Shown here: positions 1,160 through 43,821 of the stretch, piece by piece
How the letters are laid out: every line of letters begins with the position of its first letter
Numbering within the stretch: the stretch's first letter is position 1
Assembly (NCBI GenBank): GCA_021201315.1
Contig: JAJQFG010000047.1
Span: 1 to 44,265, forward strand
Direction: 5' to 3'
Length of the DNA stretch: 44,265 nt
Source: Erysipelotrichaceae bacterium
GTDB lineage: Bacteria; Bacillota_I; Bacilli_A; Erysipelotrichales; Coprobacillaceae
The notes under the pieces: generated by a model
The model's database searches: none
The model's input: the letters and a program-made list of their open reading frames with translations, nothing else
Told to the model about the DNA's origin: nothing
Translations under genes and position numbers: made by a program

Positions 1160-3770
1160 TTGCATCACCATCCAATGTTAATAAATTTAATAATTCATCA
1201 TTACTCATTTCTGTAATCCACTTTGTATCAGTAGTAATGATTTCATCAGCTAAAGTTTGTTTTAATTCAATCATCTTATCTATCTTTTCTTCAATAGTAC
1301 CATTACATACAAACTTATGTACAAATACATTCTTCTTTTGACCAATTCTAAAAGCACGATCACTTGCTTGATTTTCAACAGCAGGATTCCACCATCTATC
1401 AAAATGAATCACATGATTGGCACCAATCAAATTTAATCCTGTACCAGCTGCTTTAAGCGATAAAACAATATAAGGAATATATTCCTCATCACTATTAAAT
1501 CTTTCTACAATTTCCTGTCGTTTTCTTACAGGTGTACCACCATGTAATACGAATCCTTCTTTATGGAATATTGTTTCTAGGTATTCTGATAAATAATCAC
1601 AAATTTCACGATATTGTGTAAATACTAAAACACGTTCTCTTTTTGTATAAATCGTTTCACAAATGCTTTTTAACATTTCAAATTTACCACTTTCTCTAGC
1701 AATATAATCTGTTTTATGCAAGTATTGATCAGGATGATTACATATTTGTTTATATTTGGTAAGAGCTGATAAAATAATACCTTTTCTTTGGAATGATGTT
1801 TTACTATTATTGATTTGATCAATAACTTCTTTTGTGAGTCTTTGATAATAAGCTTGTTGTTTTTTAGTTAGATCTATATGATCGATAACTTCTATTTTAT
1901 CAGGCAAATCACTAATAATAGATTTATCAGTCTTAACTCTTCTTAATATAAATGGTGATACCATGTTTCTAAGTTTTGTCATGTTTTGTGGTTTATACTC
2001 TAATGTCTTACTAAATTTCTTAAAATCATCTGATGAACCTAATAAACCTTTATTTAAGAAATCAAATAATGACCAAAGATTAGTTAATTCATTTTCAATT
2101 GGTGTACCAGTCATGGCAATACGCATCTTAGAATTAAGCTTCTTAATATTTCTTGTTTGTTTTGTTTGTGGATTTTTAATAGCTTGTGCTTCATCTAAAA
2201 TTAAACAATCCCAAGTTATATCATTTAAGTATTGTATCTTTGATGCCATCGCATAAGTTGTGATAACTAAAAAAGGTTGATGTTTCCTAAGTTCTTCACT
2301 CATAAAATCAGCATTCATACCATGAGCCATATAATAGTTTAAATCAGGTACAAACTTTTCGATTTCTTTAGACCAGTTTCCTAATAATGAAGCAGGTACA
2401 ATAAGTAATACATGAGCATTTTGATTTTGTTCATACATATTTTCTAAAAAAGTCAATACTTGTAATGTCTTACCCAAACCCATATCATCAGCCAAACAAG
2501 CACCAAAACCAAACTGATTCATATAATTCAACCATGTATAACCACTTTGTTGATATGGCCTAAGTGTAGCATTAATATGTGGTACTTCACTTATATTCAT
2601 ACGATTAGGATCTCTTAGGTTATTAACCATATTATTAAGCCATTCACCATTAGAAATTGTCACACCATCATCAACATCAATATCTTCAGCTTCCATTTGT
2701 GATTGGAAAGCTTCTTTTAATGTAACAGTACCATCATATTCCTTCACATGTTCTAATAGTTCTTCTAAACGATGATGATTGATTTCAACCCATTGTCCTT
2801 TAAACCATACTAAACCTTCTTCATGATCCAACAATTCTTCTATTTCTGCATCGGATAACTTTTGTCCGTTAACCGCTAATCTAGCATCCATCTCTAATAT
2901 AGCATTAAAACCAACGGTTGATGGTTCTCTATCACCTATACTAACATTAATTGAAATTGATGAATTTTTCTTGCGCCACCAATTAGGGACACGACATTTA
3001 ACATGACATTTTTCTATTTCGGGGACACATAATAGCAATTCATAAGCTTCTTTAGCTGTTAGCTTAACAGGATGAAACATTTCACCTGTTTCCATAAAAT
3101 GAGCAATGAGTGGTGATACTTCTGCTACTTTATTTAAACATGATAATAATGATATAAGTTTTAATCTATCATCTTTATATTCTTCTAATGCATATTTTAA
3201 AGGAACATGTTCTATTTTATTATTAGTTTTTGTAGCATAAGATGCCATAAATGCAAAAGGATAATCCTTATCCTCTAAATCTACTAAATGAAAGTAAATC
3301 CTGTGTGCAACTGTTAAATCTTGTGATTTCTCAGTTAAATAAAATTGGACTGAGCCACTATAATCTTTAATTTCACTCGCAAAAATTTCAGCAAGTTTAA
3401 TAAAAATATGATCTAACCACTCTCTATTGATATATTCATTTCCAACAATAAAAGGAATCGAATCTAATAAATAATCATAGGTATCTTCATGTATTTCTAA
3501 ATCTATATTTTCTCTAGCAATTTCTAATTGAGGCTGATTGGTGAGTTCTTTGATAAATGAATCAGAAATCATATAAAGATAGTGTGCAGACACACTTAAT
3601 TTTGATAAATTATCTCTAAAGCCAAAATAATATAAAGCTTGATATTTATCTTCTAAGAATTCTTTTTGCAGCTTTAGTACTTTATTATTATCTGAATGAT
3701 AAGTTGTATCTACAATAAAATCTTTTTCTGTAATAATGAATTGTAAGTTTGATAGGTTATTTGTTGCCAT
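1152..3770 (-). CDS. SNF2-family DNA helicase/translocase
   Basis: This is an 872-residue Swi2/Snf2 ATPase. An N-terminal region of about 400 residues (bacterial SNF2-associated type) is followed by the two RecA-like lobes. Visible motifs are LADDMGLGKTLQ (Walker A), LILDEAQAIKNP (Walker B, DEAQ form), MTGTPIENEL (motif III), and in lobe 2 LSLKAAGTGLNL and DRWWNPAVENQASDRAFRIGQ-type motifs V-VI. Family members use ATP to translocate on duplex DNA and remodel protein-DNA complexes. I chose the ATG at 3770 because AAGGTG lies 8 bp upstream; a GTG at 3779 would sit on that site. The gene overlaps the truncated SWIM gene, and the pair probably formed one operon. All helicase motifs are intact. 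Confidence 0.9.
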   Translation of the reverse strand: MATNNLSNLQFIITEKDFIVDTTYHSDNNKVLKLQKEFLEDKYQALYYFGFRDNLSKLSVSAHYLYMISDSFIKELTNQPQLEIARENIDLEIHEDTYDYLLDSIPFIVGNEYINREWLDHIFIKLAEIFASEIKDYSGSVQFYLTEKSQDLTVAHRIYFHLVDLEDKDYPFAFMASYATKTNNKIEHVPLKYALEEYKDDRLKLISLLSCLNKVAEVSPLIAHFMETGEMFHPVKLTAKEAYELLLCVPEIEKCHVKCRVPNWWRKKNSSISINVSIGDREPSTVGFNAILEMDARLAVNGQKLSDAEIEELLDHEEGLVWFKGQWVEINHHRLEELLEHVKEYDGTVTLKEAFQSQMEAEDIDVDDGVTISNGEWLNNMVNNLRDPNRMNISEVPHINATLRPYQQSGYTWLNYMNQFGFGACLADDMGLGKTLQVLTFLENMYEQNQNAHVLLIVPASLLGNWSKEIEKFVPDLNYYMAHGMNADFMSEELRKHQPFLVITTYAMASKIQYLNDITWDCLILDEAQAIKNPQTKQTRNIKKLNSKMRIAMTGTPIENELTNLWSLFDFLNKGLLGSSDDFKKFSKTLEYKPQNMTKLRNMVSPFILRRVKTDKSIISDLPDKIEVIDHIDLTKKQQAYYQRLTKEVIDQINNSKTSFQRKGIILSALTKYKQICNHPDQYLHKTDYIARESGKFEMLKSICETIYTKRERVLVFTQYREICDYLSEYLETIFHKEGFVLHGGTPVRKRQEIVERFNSDEEYIPYIVLSLKAAGTGLNLIGANHVIHFDRWWNPAVENQASDRAFRIGQKKNVFVHKFVCNGTIEEKIDKMIELKQTLADEIITTDTKWITEMSNDELLNLLTLDGDANE

Positions 3771-36549: not shown

Positions 36550-36589
36550 AAATTTTGGATTTTAATCAAATTAAATTATTAAAATATAA

Positions 36590-36642
36590 AAAACAGATAG
36601 AATAAAATGACTAAGATATTGTCAAATTATTTTATCTGTTTT
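36590..36642. terminator. Long hairpin inside the transposon's left end
   Basis: Arms 36590-36611 and 36621-36642 match at 19 of 22 positions around a 9-nt loop, with T-rich sequence on the right. It may act as an insulating terminator against outside transcription, or mark transposase sites. Confidence 0.45.
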
Positions 36643-36661
36643 ATTATCTTCATAAGGAGAT

Positions 36662-36745
36662 AACATAGTATTGATTAAAAAAGACGAAGAGAGGTTTACA
36701 TAAGATTGGCGACTTAACCTCTCTTCTCATAGTCAAAACTATGTT
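36662..36745 (+). other. Nested stem structure in the leader of the DUF6431-like gene
   Basis: An outer pairing (AACATAGTATTGATT with AGTCAAAACTATGTT, 13 of 15 with one G-U) encloses a perfect 10-bp inner stem (AAGAGAGGTT with AACCTCTCTT) around a 19-nt loop. It ends just before the first possible start codon, so it is either a regulatory mRNA leader or a cis-acting DNA structure of the transposon. Confidence 0.5.
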
Positions 36746-37351
36746 TTGAACAAGGACATGGTATCATATAAAAGCATAAAATACAAGAGCTACAAGCAGG
36801 AAGATTACGACAAAGAGATAAAAGAAATTGAAAATGATGAATACAAACATATCAGATGCACATGTGGATCATTGGGACATTTTCATAGGCATGGTGCATA
36901 TTTGCGCTTTCTCACATCCGAGAAAGAAAACAATAAAAATAATAGCGGTGAAAAGGAAGAAAATAATACAGATGATACAAATGAAACGAATTTAATTAAA
37001 ATCACCAGAATAAGATGCGAATCCTGCAATAAAACTCATGCACTGCTTCCAACAGTTATCATACCTTATCGTATATTATCCAACCCTATAATTACTAAAC
37101 TGATAGATTCATATAGAAACGCCTTTGATTCAGTAGCTGCAATAGCCAGAATAGTAGGTATTTCACCAGAAGAGGCCAGGAAACTAATCTCATTTTATGA
37201 AAAGCATCATAAGGAGCGATTAGAATCCTTTCTGGCTGATTTTAACGTGGCCGAATATCTTGATCAGGAGTTCATCAGTGGCTATTTCGAGGAAAATCAT
37301 ATGATGTTTATGCAGCGAGTCTCACCCGTCAATCAGATAATTTATCCGTAA
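36746..37351 (+). CDS. DUF6431-like zinc-binding protein of the transposon
   Basis: The protein has about 201 residues and begins with a zinc-ribbon-like part: CTCGSLGHFHRHG, a polar Asn/Glu/Lys-rich insert, then RIRCESCNKTHALLPTVIIPY. The C-terminal half is helical with an HTH-like run (SVAAIARIVGISPEEARKLI). This layout is the one seen in DUF6431 proteins, which accompany DDE transposases in Firmicutes. DNA binding, perhaps target or end recognition, is likely. The start is uncertain: a TTG at 36746 follows the stem structure directly, and an ATG at 36758 has only a poorly spaced AAGG. Confidence 0.65.
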   Translation: MNKDMVSYKSIKYKSYKQEDYDKEIKEIENDEYKHIRCTCGSLGHFHRHGAYLRFLTSEKENNKNNSGEKEENNTDDTNETNLIKITRIRCESCNKTHALLPTVIIPYRILSNPIITKLIDSYRNAFDSVAAIARIVGISPEEARKLISFYEKHHKERLESFLADFNVAEYLDQEFISGYFEENHMMFMQRVSPVNQIIYP

Positions 37352-37426
37352 ATATCTTTTCACATAACGCTTCCGTTGATACCCTGTATACCTTAAGGTA
37401 TAGTTGAATCAGGAGGTGAAAATAGT

Positions 37427-38206
37427 ATGAATAAAGGTAAAAGAAGCAAACTTGACACTGATATTGCGCTGTTCAGATATGAGCAGATCATACCAGCGCT
37501 CAACAAAAACTATCCTGATCGTTCGGCTTTGCAGTATTATAAAAGGATTACGTCCACTCCCTTTGAATATCCTGATGGAACATCAAAAGAATTTTCCTAT
37601 CAGACGATAAAATACTGGTACAGGATTTATAAAAGAGAAGGATTTGAAGGACTTTATCCAAAGAGACGCAGTGATTGTGGTCATTCACGTAAACTGACCA
37701 GCAGCGTAAAGAAAAAAATCATTGATTTAAAAACAAAAAATCCAAGAATGACAGCGACATCTATTTATCTTAAGCTTATTGAGGATGGTGACATAACGAA
37801 AAAGGACATATCGCTGTCAACAGTAACCAGATTTGTATCATCAAAACCGGAACTTAATCAACTGCCTGTTGAGGATATGAGAGCATTCGAGATGGCACAC
37901 ACAAATGATCTATGGCAGCTAGATACTACCTACTGCTCATACATCAGATGCAGCGGCAAAAAGCATAGGACATATCTGATCATGATTATTGATGATCATT
38001 CACGAATGATAGTTGGCTATGGATTCTTTCTTGAGGATAATGCAGTAAATGTACAGATTGTTCTCAAAAGTGCAATCGCCAAATATGGTGTTCCCAAGAG
38101 ACTGTACATGGATAATGGAAGACCATATAAAAATGAGCAGCTGCCAATTATTTGTGCCCAGCTTCAGATACAGATAAACCATGCCCAGGCCTACCACGGG
38201 AATCAA
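37427..38206 (+). pseudogene. DDE transposase, N-terminal part (residues 1-260), split by the RIT element
   Basis: A GGAGGTGA site precedes the ATG. An N-terminal HTH part (residues ~1-140; YQTIKYWYRIYKREGFEGL, TATSIYLKLIEDG) leads to the rve catalytic domain with D166 (LWQLDTTYC) and D229 (YMDNGRPY). The catalytic Glu is missing because the frame runs into the RIT element after Gln260. The remaining part is at 41663-42142. Joined across one AATCAA, the protein has 419 residues, and D229 and the Glu of KGKIERAF are separated by exactly 35 residues, the classic D,D(35)E spacing. As it stands it cannot be catalytically active. Confidence 0.9.
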
Positions 38207-38296
38207 ATTATGTGTAGTTTTTAGTTATGTGGAGTTTTATTTATTTTTCCTCATTTTGAGGACTTTTTTATTTGAAAAACTACACATAATCTTTTT
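38201..38296 (+). repeat. Left 96-bp terminal inverted repeat of the RIT element
   Basis: It is identical, in inverse orientation, to 41543-41638. It contains an internal palindrome CCTCATTTTGAGG and two outer sites (ATTATGTGTAGTTTTT and AAAAACTACACATAAT) that are themselves inverted, probable recombinase binding sites. Confidence 0.93.
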
Positions 38297-38338
38297 GATA
38301 TACAATATACCTGTGTATATCATAAGGAGGTTGATAAT

Positions 38339-39544
38339 ATGTACACATTAAAAGAATTATGCGATAAGGCATTTCAGGAGCTTCTTGATAGCGGCCTTTC
38401 GTATAAAACTGTTTATGGTGCCAATTGGTATATCTGGAACAGACTTGTACGCAAGTTTGGTCCAGATGAGATTTTTAAGGAAGAAATGGTTTATGAATAT
38501 TGTATTGAGTATTTTCAAAGAGATATATTTTCAATTGATAGAACTAATCTTAGACCTGTTGAACGCAAATATATCATTGCCTTTAATAATTTCATTCAAT
38601 CGAATAGAGACATTCCATTCATCCAATTAAATATGCATTATCATAGAGATTTTGTGCTTGATAATCATTCACAGAAATTATTAGATGAATATCTCAATTA
38701 CTGTAAAGCTGATGGAAATAGTGAAAGAACACTAGAAAATAAACATCTAAGAATTAAAAATTTTATTATTGATTCTGATTTCAGTAATTTGACCAAGGAA
38801 AGTCTAATTGATTATCTAAATAAAAGAAATAACGATATGAATAGAATCGCCTATGTCATTGAAATGAGACTTATTAGAAGATTTATTGTTTTCTGTTATG
38901 AAAAAGGTGCAGTCGATAAAGATATTCTATTGACTTTTCCAGATAACATGAGTTCCATCTCTGATAAAAATATTCCTTCAGTATATAGTACTGAGGAAAT
39001 TAAATTAGTACTAGCATCTGCAAAAAAATATCTGTATGAAGACAACCATCTCAGAAATTACTCTATTCTTTGTTTAATCGCATATACAGGAATGAGAGCT
39101 AATGATGTAGCTAATCTTAAATTATCTGATATTGACTGGAGAAATAATGAAATAAGATATGTTCAACAAAAAACAAAGAAAGCTCATGTCCTTCCTCTTA
39201 TTCCAGAAATCGGTAATCCAATGGTTGATTATATCTTGAATGAAAGAAGTGGTTCTTCAGAATATCTATATACTACTGAAAAGGGAAATAAAATCAGTCC
39301 ACAGTTGGTGACAGATGTAATTAGAACATATTTTGAAATATCTCCTGTTGAAATCAATGGAAGACATCATGGTGCACATGCATTAAGACATAGTGTTGCG
39401 ACTAATCTGTTAAATAATTCTGTGTCATCATTCACTGTAGCCAATGTACTTGGTCATTCAAACACCAAGTGTGTTCATATTTATGCAAAGGTTGAGCTAA
39501 ACAATCTTAGAAAATGTGTTCTGGAGGCCCCATATTATGCGTGA
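38339..39544 (+). CDS. Tyrosine recombinase, first of the RIT trio
   Basis: The 401-residue protein has an N-terminal SAM-like DNA-binding part and a C-terminal catalytic domain. Catalytic residues are visible: Arg in AYTGMRANDVANLK, HALRHS (His-x-x-Arg), LGHS, and the nucleophile Tyr in HIYAKV. AAGGAGG precedes the ATG. The stop overlaps the start of the next recombinase gene. Complete and probably functional. In RIT elements the three proteins are thought to act together in a circle-forming, site-selective recombination. Confidence 0.9.
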   Translation: MYTLKELCDKAFQELLDSGLSYKTVYGANWYIWNRLVRKFGPDEIFKEEMVYEYCIEYFQRDIFSIDRTNLRPVERKYIIAFNNFIQSNRDIPFIQLNMHYHRDFVLDNHSQKLLDEYLNYCKADGNSERTLENKHLRIKNFIIDSDFSNLTKESLIDYLNKRNNDMNRIAYVIEMRLIRRFIVFCYEKGAVDKDILLTFPDNMSSISDKNIPSVYSTEEIKLVLASAKKYLYEDNHLRNYSILCLIAYTGMRANDVANLKLSDIDWRNNEIRYVQQKTKKAHVLPLIPEIGNPMVDYILNERSGSSEYLYTTEKGNKISPQLVTDVIRTYFEISPVEINGRHHGAHALRHSVATNLLNNSVSSFTVANVLGHSNTKCVHIYAKVELNNLRKCVLEAPYYA

Positions 39545-40544
39545 ACTGATAAGTCCATGGAGTCAACACATGCATTCTTTCTATGAATACAAAAGACTAT
39601 GCGGCTATAAATATGAAAGAGCTGAGAGTGTTCTTTATATGTTTGACAGATATTACGCAGAATTAGGCATTAAAGAGTTAAGATTTTCAAGAGATATCAT
39701 TGAGCCATTTCTTTATCTAAAACCAGGTGAAAGAATAGGAACTCAAACGGGTAAAGCGAGTACATTACGTCAATTTGGCAAATATTTATTTATTAACGAA
39801 ATTATCGATGATGTCTATATTATTCCACCTATATCACGTAGAGGTGAAAAGGAATATATACCATATATCTATGAAAAAGGTGAACTAATAGATATTATTG
39901 AATATTTTGAAAATTATGAAATATCAGATATTCCTGGAGGATTTAAGCCTCTGCCAAATACATTAAATGCAGTGACCATTGCAGTCAAGATACTGATGTC
40001 AACAGGTATGAGACTTGGTGAGGTAGTCAATCTAAAAATGAATAATATAGATTTTGACAATAATCTTTTCTATATTGATACAGCTAAAAATGATAATCAA
40101 AGAATTGTTCCGATTTCAGAAACATTAAAACATGAAATAACTGGTTATCTATTTAAAACACCTTTCAATATAGGAAAAAATGATTTTTTATTGTATGTAG
40201 ATTATGGTAATAGAATAAGCAACTATAATATTTCTTACTATTTTAAAAAAGCACTTGAAGCATGTGGTATCAAACAAAGAAATGAATGCAGAAAAAGAAT
40301 CCATGATCTTCGCCATACATTCGCAGTTATGAGCCTTACACAGCTACAACATACTGAAGAAAATATTAATCTATCATTATCTTATCTTTCTACATATCTT
40401 GGTCATAAATCAATTTATGAGACACAAAAGTATATATGGCTTACACCAGTACTGTTTAAGGATATAAAGGGCAAAATGGAGAATTATTCGCAATTTATTA
40501 TGGATATATTTGATGAAGGAGAAAAGTTTGATGAAGAAGATTGA
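39537..40544 (+). CDS. Tyrosine recombinase, second of the RIT trio
   Basis: The protein has 335 residues from ATG 39537, preceded by GGAGG within the last codons of the first recombinase gene. Catalytic set: Arg in STGMRLGEVVNLK, HDLRHTFAV, LGHKS, and Tyr in TQKYIWL. Its frame overlaps both neighbours, which implies coupled translation and a fixed stoichiometry. Confidence 0.9.
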   Translation: MRELISPWSQHMHSFYEYKRLCGYKYERAESVLYMFDRYYAELGIKELRFSRDIIEPFLYLKPGERIGTQTGKASTLRQFGKYLFINEIIDDVYIIPPISRRGEKEYIPYIYEKGELIDIIEYFENYEISDIPGGFKPLPNTLNAVTIAVKILMSTGMRLGEVVNLKMNNIDFDNNLFYIDTAKNDNQRIVPISETLKHEITGYLFKTPFNIGKNDFLLYVDYGNRISNYNISYYFKKALEACGIKQRNECRKRIHDLRHTFAVMSLTQLQHTEENINLSLSYLSTYLGHKSIYETQKYIWLTPVLFKDIKGKMENYSQFIMDIFDEGEKFDEED

Positions 40545-41544
40545 TAACGATTTTCCCAAAATACTGGAATCATTTTTTTCAAAACACCTGATACTAGAAA
40601 GAAGATACAGCCTAAATACTTATGAGTCTTATCTAACAACAATGAAACAGTTGATCAATTTTATGGATAATAATCTTCATATAAGAAGAGATAAGATAAC
40701 CATTATGGATTTATCAAAGGAAAATATCAAAAAATTCCTTAATGAAGAAGAAAAAGCATATGGATGGAGTCCAAAAACTAGAAATCAGAAATTATCTGCA
40801 GTTAAATCGTTTCTAGAGTATGCACAGTCAATAAATCCAGTTTATCTTAATACATATGTGGAAGTAAAATCCATCAAGAAGAAAAAGGAGAATAATGAAA
40901 AACAGGATTATATGACAGTAGATGAAATGAAAGCATTTTTTAGTTGTATAGATCTTAGATATAAGTCAGGATACAAGCATTATGTAATTCTAACAGTTCT
41001 TTATGAAACTGGTACAAGGGTATCAGAAGTTATTAATATAAGGATTGAAAATCTTTTTTTTAATGAAAATCCATATATTAAGATATTCGGTAAAGGAAAC
41101 AAAGAAAGAAACGTATATATTAGCGATTCAGTAGTATTTATGATTAATGAATATCGAACAAAATTTAATATTCATGATGGATATTTATTTAGAAATCCAT
41201 CAAACAATCAATTAACCAGATATAGTATTAATAAAATGATTGATAAATATTATGAAAAGACAGTAGAAAAATGTCCAACATTAACTAATAAAAGTGTTTC
41301 TCCACATACTTTTAGACACAGCAAGGCTGTTCATTTCCTTCAGAATGATACTTCAATATTCATAATACAGCGTTTTTTAGGCCACAGTAGTATAAAAACA
41401 ACAGAAGTATATCTTGACATTACAAACGATGTAGTAATAGAAGCAGTTAAATTGGCAACGAATATGGTATCAAATAAAAAAGATAATGCAATGTGGCAAG
41501 GCAATGAAGAATTAATATCGTTACTGGAAAGTCTTAAAAAATAA
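40531..41544 (+). CDS. Tyrosine recombinase, third of the RIT trio
   Basis: The protein has 337 residues from ATG 40531, with AAGGAG 8 bp upstream. It has a clear N-terminal core-binding domain (SLNTYESYLTTMKQLINFM) and catalytic residues: Arg in YETGTRVSEVINIR, HTFRHSKAV, LGHSS, and Tyr in TEVYLDI. It resembles XerC/D-type enzymes most among the three. Its stop lies next to the right inverted repeat. Confidence 0.9.
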   Translation: MKKIDNDFPKILESFFSKHLILERRYSLNTYESYLTTMKQLINFMDNNLHIRRDKITIMDLSKENIKKFLNEEEKAYGWSPKTRNQKLSAVKSFLEYAQSINPVYLNTYVEVKSIKKKKENNEKQDYMTVDEMKAFFSCIDLRYKSGYKHYVILTVLYETGTRVSEVINIRIENLFFNENPYIKIFGKGNKERNVYISDSVVFMINEYRTKFNIHDGYLFRNPSNNQLTRYSINKMIDKYYEKTVEKCPTLTNKSVSPHTFRHSKAVHFLQNDTSIFIIQRFLGHSSIKTTEVYLDITNDVVIEAVKLATNMVSNKKDNAMWQGNEELISLLESLKK

Positions 41545-41638
41545 AAAGATTATGTGTAGTTTTTCAAATAAAAAAGTCCTCAAAATGAGGAAAAATAAAT
41601 AAAACTCCACATAACTAAAAACTACACATAATTTGATT
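41543..41638 (-). repeat. Right 96-bp terminal inverted repeat of the RIT element
   Basis: It is a perfect inverse copy of 38201-38296, beginning at the stop codon of the third recombinase gene. Confidence 0.93.
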
Positions 41639-41663
41639 TATGTGGAATTCCACATAAATCAAA
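41632..41663. repeat. Perfect 32-bp palindrome at the right RIT junction
   Basis: TTTGATTTATGTGG, then AATTCC, then the exact reverse complement. It spans the last 7 bp of the inverted repeat, 18 bp of extra sequence and the AATCAA that rejoins the transposase gene. The left junction has no such palindrome. Confidence 0.85.
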
Positions 41664-42142
41664 AAGGGAAAATTGAGCGTGCATTCAAGTCAGTGAAGGA
41701 ACAGTGGATGTACAATACTGATTTTTCGCAGTTCAAAGACACTGATGATATTAATGATGCATTCGCTGATTATGTCAATCAGAAAAACAACGCTCCACAT
41801 TCATCGCTCGATGATAGTCAAACACCTGTAAATGTCTTCATGAGTGAACCAGAACGTATAAGAAGAGTGGAACCAATAGTACTTGAAAAAGCATTTTATC
41901 ATACAGTTACAAGAAAAGTAGCTAATGATGCAACCATTCGTCTAAACACAAGAATATATGAAACAGGTCAGCAGTATATTGGTTCAAGGATAACGCTTAA
42001 ATATCTGCCTGATCTAAGCAGGGTATTCATATACGGATGTGATGATAACAGCTACATAGAAATACACGAGGTAAACAAGGTGGAAAATTCAAAAACCAAA
42101 AGAAGAAAACCACTGTTTGCACAGGAGGATGAGGAACAATGA
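41663..42142 (+). pseudogene. DDE transposase, C-terminal part with the catalytic Glu
   Basis: The frame from KGKIERAFKSVKEQW carries the third catalytic residue (Glu in KIER), then FADYVNQKNNAPHSSLDDSQTPVNVF, a pattern common at the end of rve domains, and a beta-barrel-like C-terminal part (IYETGQQYIGSRITLKYLPD). The open frame appears to begin upstream at 41633, but that part lies in the RIT terminal sequence. The stop overlaps the ATPase start (ATGA). Confidence 0.88.
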
Positions 42143-42939
42143 TTGATTTTAAGATTTATTATTCACTGGAATTCAATCCATTTGAGAAAGGTCAGGAGGA
42201 CATACAGGTTGATACCAATGACTTCAAAGAGGCAACAGCCAGACTTAATTATCTGAGGGATATAAGAGGCATTGGATTATTTACAGGAAGAAGCGGAACT
42301 GGCAAGACGTTCTGCCTCAAAAAGTTCAGTGAAACACTCAATCCTGGACTTTACCAGGTCGTATATATGCCTATGTCAACATTAACCACAATTGAATTCT
42401 ATCGTGAGCTTAGCCTTCAGCTAGGACTGGAGACATATCATAAAAAGATAGATAATTTTAGAAGCATACAGAGTCATATAAAGGATATGGTTGATGAAAA
42501 ACGAATAGTGCCGGTTATTATTCTTGATGAGGCACAATTCCTTGGAACCAGCATCCTCAATGATCTGATAATGCTTCTCAACTTTGATTTTGATTCAAAG
42601 AATTATGTCATTCTGATAATTTCTGGAACCCCAGTTTTGAACATAACTATGAATAAGGCTGTACACGAAGCACTCAAGCAGCGAATAGTAATACAGTATG
42701 ATATGGCTGGAATGGATGAAAAGGATATTGGAAAATATATTGATGAAAAACTAAAAAAAGCGGGTAGAAGAGATCCGCTGTTTAGAGATGATGCAGTCAG
42801 TGCATTGTTGAATGCATGCCAGGGATCATCAAGAAAGCTTAACAACCTTCTAACGCACTGCCTTATAATTGGTGCAACAGAAAAGAAGATGATAATAGAT
42901 AATGAAGTAGTAATGGATGCAGCTAATGAGATTGGTTAA
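42139..42939 (+). CDS. AAA+ ATPase of the transposon (ExeA/TniB/TnsC type)
   Basis: The 266-residue ATPase starts YYSLEFNPFEKG, the usual beginning of ExeA/TniB-like proteins. Walker A is GRSGTGKT (50-57), Walker B VIILDEAQ (D130, E131), sensor 1 LIISGTP and the C-terminal lid contains GSSRKLNNLLTHCL. These ATPases choose or mark target DNA and activate the DDE transposase. It is coupled to the transposase gene through an ATGA overlap. Intact, although its partner is split. Confidence 0.9.
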   Translation: MIDFKIYYSLEFNPFEKGQEDIQVDTNDFKEATARLNYLRDIRGIGLFTGRSGTGKTFCLKKFSETLNPGLYQVVYMPMSTLTTIEFYRELSLQLGLETYHKKIDNFRSIQSHIKDMVDEKRIVPVIILDEAQFLGTSILNDLIMLLNFDFDSKNYVILIISGTPVLNITMNKAVHEALKQRIVIQYDMAGMDEKDIGKYIDEKLKKAGRRDPLFRDDAVSALLNACQGSSRKLNNLLTHCLIIGATEKKMIIDNEVVMDAANEIG

Positions 42940-42970
42940 ATTAAATTATTAAACAAAGGAGACATATAAC

Positions 42971-43618
42971 ATGTTTGATACAGGGCTGGTACTAAGACAC
43001 AAGAAAAACAGTAATCCCTACGGATTATCAAAAGAAGACGGACGCCCTCTTACAAGAGGTGAGACAATTGGATTTTTTAAACTTAATAATATCAATGATG
43101 CAGAACTTATGGAACTGAATGATTACATAAAGGGAGACAGAGCCAACAATACTTTCTATGATAACTACTGGCTTGAATTTGATGAACTTGGTTATGGATG
43201 TAATTACATAGACGGAATGAGACGTTCATATGCGAAGCTTGATGGAATATATGAAGAAAATAAAAGCTTTACGTTTCCCTGTATATATGAGGACATAGAG
43301 TGGGAAGGTAAAATTAGGAATTTAATATGTCATCAGGGTTATATAGAATTTTCAGTACTTAGAAGAGGAAGTCTCATAAAAACATATGCAGGTGATGCAG
43401 GTAATGAAATATGGGCATGCTTTCCAGCATAAAATTGTGGATGTACGCTTGCAGAGCCGTCAGATATATTTTGGAACAGCGAAAGACTATATCGTTTATT
43501 TGAAAGCATTCCAGATGGGATAACTGTTGCGAATGCGATAAAAATACTAGGCAGTCACATAATAAAACCAAAATATGAATTTGATTATGATTTATCATTC
43601 GATGATGATGAGGATTAA
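42971..43618 (+). pseudogene. Fifth transposon gene, unknown function, with in-frame TAA at codon 154
   Basis: From ATG 42971 (AAAGGAG upstream) the frame runs 153 codons, meets TAA at 43430-43432, and continues in the same frame for 61 more codons to TAA 43616-43618. The segment after the first stop (CGCTLAEPSDIFWNSERLYR, an amphipathic part, then a tail DYDLSFDDDED) looks like real protein, so the ancestral product had 214 residues, or 215 counting the codon now TAA. I do not recognise a family. It lies directly behind the ATPase gene, so a role as target-selection or regulatory factor (the place of TniQ in Tn5053) is possible but unsupported by motifs. The 153-residue form may still be made. 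Confidence 0.65.
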
Positions 43619-43630
43619 TAATATTGGATA

Positions 43631-43661
43631 TGGATATATCGGTAATGATATATCCATTTTT
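43631..43661 (+). terminator. Terminator of the transposon operon
   Basis: A perfect 10-bp stem (TGGATATATC with GATATATCCA, 6-nt loop) is followed by TTTTTATT, 12 bp after the last stop codon. Confidence 0.85.
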
Positions 43662-43821
43662 ATTGACAAACAAAAAATGGTTATTTACAAACCATTCATA
43701 TCAGTTATTATATGAAATTTAGCAGTTATAATAATCTGCATAATTTGATTAAAATAAAGTGAATCATCTTATTAGTCACAATAAATCAACCACAATTTTG
43801 GATATTTTAATTTGAAAAAAA

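Follow-up and report, generated by a model that had tools for sequence, protein, structure and literature searches.

The window examined here, a 44,265-nucleotide stretch of bacterial DNA, holds a transposase gene that has been cut in two by a second mobile element, and the question that this arrangement raises is whether the second element switches its host off and on, is a lasting part of it, fell there by chance or was directed to that site.

Architecture of the nested element and its host

The interrupting sequence is a complete, 3,456-bp RIT (recombinase-in-trio) element that lies in a DDE transposase gene between the codons for D229 and E265, confirming the original prediction that a RIT is nested between the catalytic Asp and Glu. 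The features, with the strand where one applies, are as follows.

36559–43755: host transposon (limits tentative); its terminal inverted repeats are short and imperfect (best pair 36559–36584 and 43726–43755)
36746–37351, plus strand: gene for the DUF6431 protein of the host transposon
37427–38207, plus strand: 5′ part of the DDE transposase (D166, D229), 6-bp core included
38202–38207, plus strand: left (non-dyad) 6-bp core, ATCAAA
38208–41663, plus strand: RIT insertion (element and one core copy), 3,456 bp
38208–38296: left inverted-repeat arm (38201–38296 counting AATCAAA; 96/96 equal to the right arm)
38339–39544, plus strand: ritA, tyrosine recombinase of 401 aa (open reading frame and Pfam Phage_integrase)
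39537–40544, plus strand: ritB, tyrosine recombinase of 335 aa (8-nt overlap with ritA; Pfam Phage_integrase)
40531–41544, plus strand: ritC, tyrosine recombinase of 337 aa (14-nt overlap with ritB; Pfam Phage_integrase)
41543–41631: right inverted-repeat arm (41543–41638 against 38201–38296, 96/96)
41632–41637, minus strand: internal 6-bp core, TTTGAT, the reverse complement of ATCAAA
41638–41657: 20-bp dyad, TTATGTGGAATTCCACATAA, palindromic at 20/20 positions
41658–41663, plus strand: right (dyad-side) 6-bp core, ATCAAA
41664–42142, plus strand: 3′ part of the DDE transposase, starting KGKIER, with catalytic E265
42139–42939, plus strand: AAA ATPase of the host transposon
42971–43432, plus strand: 153-aa open reading frame within the tentative transposon limits, no Pfam family

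The three consecutive, co-directional tyrosine-recombinase genes, with their short overlaps, are the only genes of at least 100 aa inside the repeats, which surround the trio in an element of ~3.5 kb; the predicted trio and its perfect 96-bp repeats are thus both present. No extra protein of the Srap, TnpC or GinD type, the hallmark of SEs, Tn554 and GInts, was found within the repeats of this RIT, which is present as a single copy in its own genome. The cited part of PMC8138268 ascribes two core-binding domains to RitA and an extra C-terminal helix to RitC. Joining position 38207 to 41664 yields, as predicted, a protein of 419 residues with Pfam rve and rve_3 on the two sides of the join and exactly 35 residues between D229 and E265, D166 being the first residue of the D,D(35)E triad. 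The junction had been read as AATCAA; the exact 6-bp join stands, while the repeat at the junctions is really the 7-bp AATCAAA and is best read as a 6-bp core, ATCAAA, flanked by the arms CCACATAA and TTATGTG. The 20-bp palindrome at the right end (41638–41657) had no place in that earlier account.

The host transposon has 15-bp ends (ATTTTAATCAAATTA and its inverse), and no target duplication was identified at its tentative limits. Its order of DUF6431 gene and DDE transposase recurs on two Proteobacteria plasmids, from Cupriavidus and Acidithiobacillus, and on the Cupriavidus plasmid an ATP-binding protein is annotated next. An empty copy from a related genome (G017) is a 3,591-bp contig with inverted ends. 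Judged by gene order (DDE transposase, then ATPase gene) and by the size of the empty copy (~3.5 kb), the host appears to be a DUF6431–transposase–ATPase transposon of Tn6049-like type.

Ends, dyads and cores

We used RitA matches from 244 genomes of the order and RitC matches from 11 chosen genomes, and examined 53 loci with a recognisable trio, which are not 53 independent events; outside these lie many listed places with XerC/D-like frames of about 300 aa or with weak scores. Ends were placed manually, with the cores as guide, the automatic choice of cuts by the longest restored reading frame having been dropped after it gave wrong ends at several loci. Both cuts were set at 23 loci, and every one of these has a 20-bp dyad (TTAT or TAAT ... 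ATAA or ATTA), palindromic at 14–20 of its 20 positions, on one side only, between the internal 6-bp core and an outer core; the predicted circle therefore has two inverted cores. All three cores of the window agree, and the joint of its predicted circle (41543–41663 followed by 38208–38296) forms a perfect palindrome of 210/210 bp. Since palindromes of such length and perfection tend to be unstable, the circle might exist only briefly, or a different intermediate might be used, for example a hairpin-ended one.

The outer cores are equal at 16 of the 23 loci; at six of the seven others the internal core matches the dyad-side core, and the seventh, L176, breaks this rule. Two IS66 copies (L146 and L147) have their internal and outer cores swapped and their genes flipped, and in a further IS66 copy (L149) the internal and dyad-side cores are the same. 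In one genome (G349) a copy has TTTTGT as its internal core and another copy has it as its outer core, and in a second (G548) two copies show the reciprocal pattern of internal and outer cores, although linkage to rit genes was not found on the contigs of these G349 and G548 ends and one left end of G548 (C77, TTCAAT) fits neither outer core. Taken together, the copies indicate that either core is usable and that the unused one can keep the 6 bp of an earlier target. The loci L118–L121 and L138–L144 of these two genomes, where the cores are exchanged between copies, have the same type of dyad end as the RITs, some of them beside T-rich, terminator-like sequence.

The side on which the dyad lies is constant within a target gene. 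It is 3′ for the window, L107, L108 and L093, and for the IS66 loci L147, L149, L158 and L160; it is equal for the three ISL3 copies L145, L148 and L150; and it is 5′ in all four reverse transcriptase genes, where two rit trios run along the gene and two against it. The rit genes can thus point either way while the dyad side is set by the target gene. Between L145/L148 and L150 the asymmetric dyad keeps the same direction in the frame of the circle but lies on the ritA side in the former and the ritC side in the latter, and this is the signature of one circle opened at either of two cores. In-place inversion as the origin of flipped RITs was ruled out for L150, because there the asymmetric dyad and the rit genes are flipped together. 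Two genomes of one genus carry related RITs at the same IS66 codon site, in G017 (L158) one way round and in G016 (L160) the other. By eye, the arms bear no obvious resemblance to the target flanks.

We consider it very probable that the RIT was put into the Tn6049-like transposase by site-specific recombination of a two-core circle, with the conserved codons before the catalytic Glu as attachment site. This short stretch of catalytic-domain codons would serve the RIT much as tRNA genes serve phages. The three recombinases would produce a circular form whose joint carries two inverted 6-bp cores around the 20-bp dyad, and either core could recombine with the 6 bp of the target; the core used would then form the junctions, the other would stay internal, and transposition should stop once the transposase is split. 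The architecture, the exact junction and the recurrence at the site are established here, and the sequences argue for independent arrival on host copies already present and for the use of both cores; we infer the circular intermediate, the roles of the recombinases and the loss of transposition.

Filled and empty copies of the site

A search for the same nesting in other genomes, proposed in the original prediction as a check, found the same codon position filled in three of them. Two of 43 genomes of the family (G016 and G035) carry a full-length, 69%-identical RIT at x|KGKIER, as in the window, of a 77–78%-identical transposase; in the third (G018) the site is filled by a RIT split over two contigs, a copy that is a join of these contigs, with a joined transposase frame of 464 aa. 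Several source assemblies are fragmented. In G019 a distant RIT lies 9 bp downstream of the window position, directly before the Glu codon. The nesting in the window is not a matter of chance, because homologous elements hold the same site elsewhere. Close relatives of the window element were found neither in viral contigs nor, by megablast, in plasmids, and a search of genome contigs gave one distant match.

Empty, open relatives of the transposase occur as well (G017:C108 and G037:C4, with a partial copy, G037:C69), as do more distant uninterrupted ones. The empty transposon of G017, with an open transposase frame of 422 aa, is 99.3% identical to the filled one of G016 over 1,613 bp of upstream flank (11 differences). 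A further RIT-free relative (G308:C71; L122, about 1600–1640) has a small deletion and loss of frame over the KxxER segment, where RITs insert, which is possibly a scar of imprecise excision or an assembly error. In G019 the ATPase gene of the RIT-carrying transposon (L093, 7393–9961) is cut by a 1.77-kb insertion with a transposase-like reading frame of 519 aa, and the same insertion also lies beside the IS66-borne RIT L146.

With its gene split, the transposase is very likely silenced by the window RIT unless the two halves work together. The stronger proposal, that the RIT excises precisely often enough to switch the transposase off and on, draws on the exact junction, across which a 419-aa protein with D,D(35)E is regained, and on the empty site and open frame of the near-identical G017 transposon, but the distribution of empty sites does not bear out a reversible silencer. 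The genomes of all three empty close relatives lack this RIT lineage, whereas in G019 three of three copies of one ISL3 and three of three of one IS66 are filled (6/6 over two IS families, the copies having been found by their left halves). In addition, the cited part of PMC10214605 reports that the related strand-biased elements (SEs) form circles and leave no empty site behind, and the host transposons of G035 and G019 have suffered further damage in the ATPase gene. We therefore regard a working switch as unlikely.

We rate as quite unlikely an obligate composite, in which the RIT would have inserted once, long ago, and then been inherited with the transposon, perhaps because a split transposase or a regulator is useful. 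Such a history would account for the site and orientation shared by four genomes, for transposase halves that are open in all four as far as the contigs reach, and for the end-to-end alignment of the window with the G016 composite (71% DNA identity, and 69% for the RIT). It does not sit well with the empty relatives, with the arrival of two separate RIT lineages on this transposase family, with the varying orientation on other targets or with the comparison of G016 and G035, whose RITs are identical at 3439/3443 positions (four differences) while their upstream transposon flanks agree at 1560/1613 (53 differences; Fisher p about 3e-22). As the RIT is so much closer than its flank, it would have arrived after the hosts diverged.

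The three ISL3 copies of G019, a complete genome, lead the same way. Their RITs show no difference in 4,136 bp (L145 and L148) or in 4,110 bp (L145 and L150), while the left flanks of the IS differ at 11–14 positions in 2,190 bp (11 for L145 and L148), and identical RITs on diverged IS copies point to repeated insertion. These comparisons are most simply read as RITs moving onto host copies already in place, and gene conversion of the RIT alone may be an alternative. The G016 locus is itself a mosaic (L107, 5184–5362): its left flank is like that of empty G017, its RIT and right flank are like those of G035 (177/178 against 171/178 for G017, the contig stopping 178 bp past the RIT), and the break is close to the left core or at it. 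The transposase halves could have been exchanged by the recombinases, or the mosaic could be an assembly error.

Targets elsewhere and relation to known elements

Mobile-element genes are interrupted at 30 of the 53 trio loci, a raw count that takes no account of the background rate of mobile genes; for 24 of these the support is a Pfam match of the restored or flanking protein or the fact that the IS or transposase is one scanned at another locus, and six are tentative (L157 below the Pfam cut-off; L179, L163, L164, L173 and L175 by eye, without a Pfam match). ATPase genes are interrupted at two loci (L177, AAA_14; L174, weak), and two further sites are terminator-like by eye (L181, L182). 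Four non-coding sites are tentatively assigned to group II introns, partly by eye (L151, L153, L162, L171), a candidate domain V beside L151 having an Rfam score below the gathering score. No target was identified at 15 of the 53 loci, and with L181 and L182 at terminator-like sites mobile genes are therefore not the sole targets. L092 was rejected as an interrupted gene, since joining at its cores yields no recognisable gene.

A RitC tree of 45 rows accommodates the target label with 19 changes, where shuffled labels take 28.3 on average (0/200 shuffles as low), and Tn6049-like, IS66, ISL3 and, in part tentatively, IstA targets are each reached by two separate lineages. Specificity is therefore inherited, yet lineages arrive repeatedly at the same kinds of target. 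The preference for transposase and other mobile-element genes on which the original prediction hung is supported by this clustering and by the majority of identified targets. Insertion without target preference, which the 15 loci without an identified target and the RITs at ATPase genes (L177, L174) or near terminators might suggest, can be set aside almost completely, being contradicted already by the exact recurrence at one site, by the clustering on the tree and by the mobile-element majority.

Within mobile-element genes the sites often fall at catalytic or nucleotide-binding codons. Examples of the junctions at trio loci are YLVM|DET in ISL3, LFHS|DRGYQYTS in IS3, TNS|LDERTLRP and GCWA|HARR in IS66, GGG|KTFLA in IstB, RR|CGKS in AAA_14 and QGG|PISP in the reverse transcriptase. 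Which of these residues are catalytic we take from knowledge of the families; the IS66 GCWA, ISL3 C-terminal and IS200 sites are conserved motifs rather than known catalytic residues. Ten RIT-match regions on plasmids include one in an IS66 TnpB-like gene of Sinorhizobium (L204), where by eye a 148-aa frame is restored and the dyad has the same outer TTATGTGG/CCACATAA, one in the C-terminus of an IS66-like TnpC (L203, by eye) and one possibly in IstA (L202). A search of a phage collection with an IS66 gene gave no match.

That RITs insert into transposases is already known. The cited parts of PMC2864759 and PMC3414803 describe RITs of Cupriavidus metallidurans CH34 and Acidithiobacillus ferrooxidans as overlapping trios of tyrosine recombinases of about 3.5 kb, with an inverted repeat that has an overlapping palindrome; one lies in an IS66 tnpA and one in radC (PMC2864759), and one is inside the transposase gene of a Tn6049-related transposon (PMC3414803). 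Trio, size, palindrome-bearing repeat and the IS66 and Tn6049-related targets are as here, whereas those parts give neither an exact codon position nor a site recurring in several genera, and mention neither a two-core joint nor core memory. SEs, in the cited part of PMC10214605, likewise use tyrosine recombinases and a 6-bp core, the donor 6 bp passing to one end and the target 6 bp being at the other; the match of dyad-side and internal cores at six of seven unequal-end RIT loci would be consistent with such an exchange, while the window cores are all equal. Unlike the IntA-Tfp-IntB-Srap arrangement of SEs, the window RIT has three recombinases and no fourth gene, and this part describes no dyad joint. 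It also gives RIT movement and target specificity as not tested. GInts resemble RITs in having three integrase-type proteins and in being site-specific, and they excise as circles, excision yielding attachment-site variants; they differ in a fourth essential gene, genomic-island cargo and other targets (cited part of PMC5385486). Among papers judged by title and the start of the abstract, a scope outside which the main RIT paper falls (Ricker et al. 2013, Plasmid), none describes catalytic-codon targeting or a two-core joint for RITs, and the catalytic-codon rule and the two-core end may, provisionally, be new.

The RIT in the window looks like a parasite of mobile DNA, and its relatives treat many kinds of jumping genes alike. 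Evenly balanced, in our judgement, is the wider reading in which RITs form a broad class of hyperparasites. Their lineages would have taken as attachment sites highly conserved codons, catalytic or nucleotide-binding, in the enzymes of other mobile elements (DDE transposases, an HUH transposase, IstB and the group II intron reverse transcriptase), and in a genome they would fill every copy of a host IS, silencing the whole family. The palindromic two-core joint of their circle would allow insertion through either core, so that one core would record the previous target, and the two-core joint with its stored 6 bp leads to predictions that can be tested from sequence alone. If the targeting rule is true, RITs would be natural, sequence-specific inactivators of whole insertion-sequence families and a brake on mobile DNA without any host defence system.
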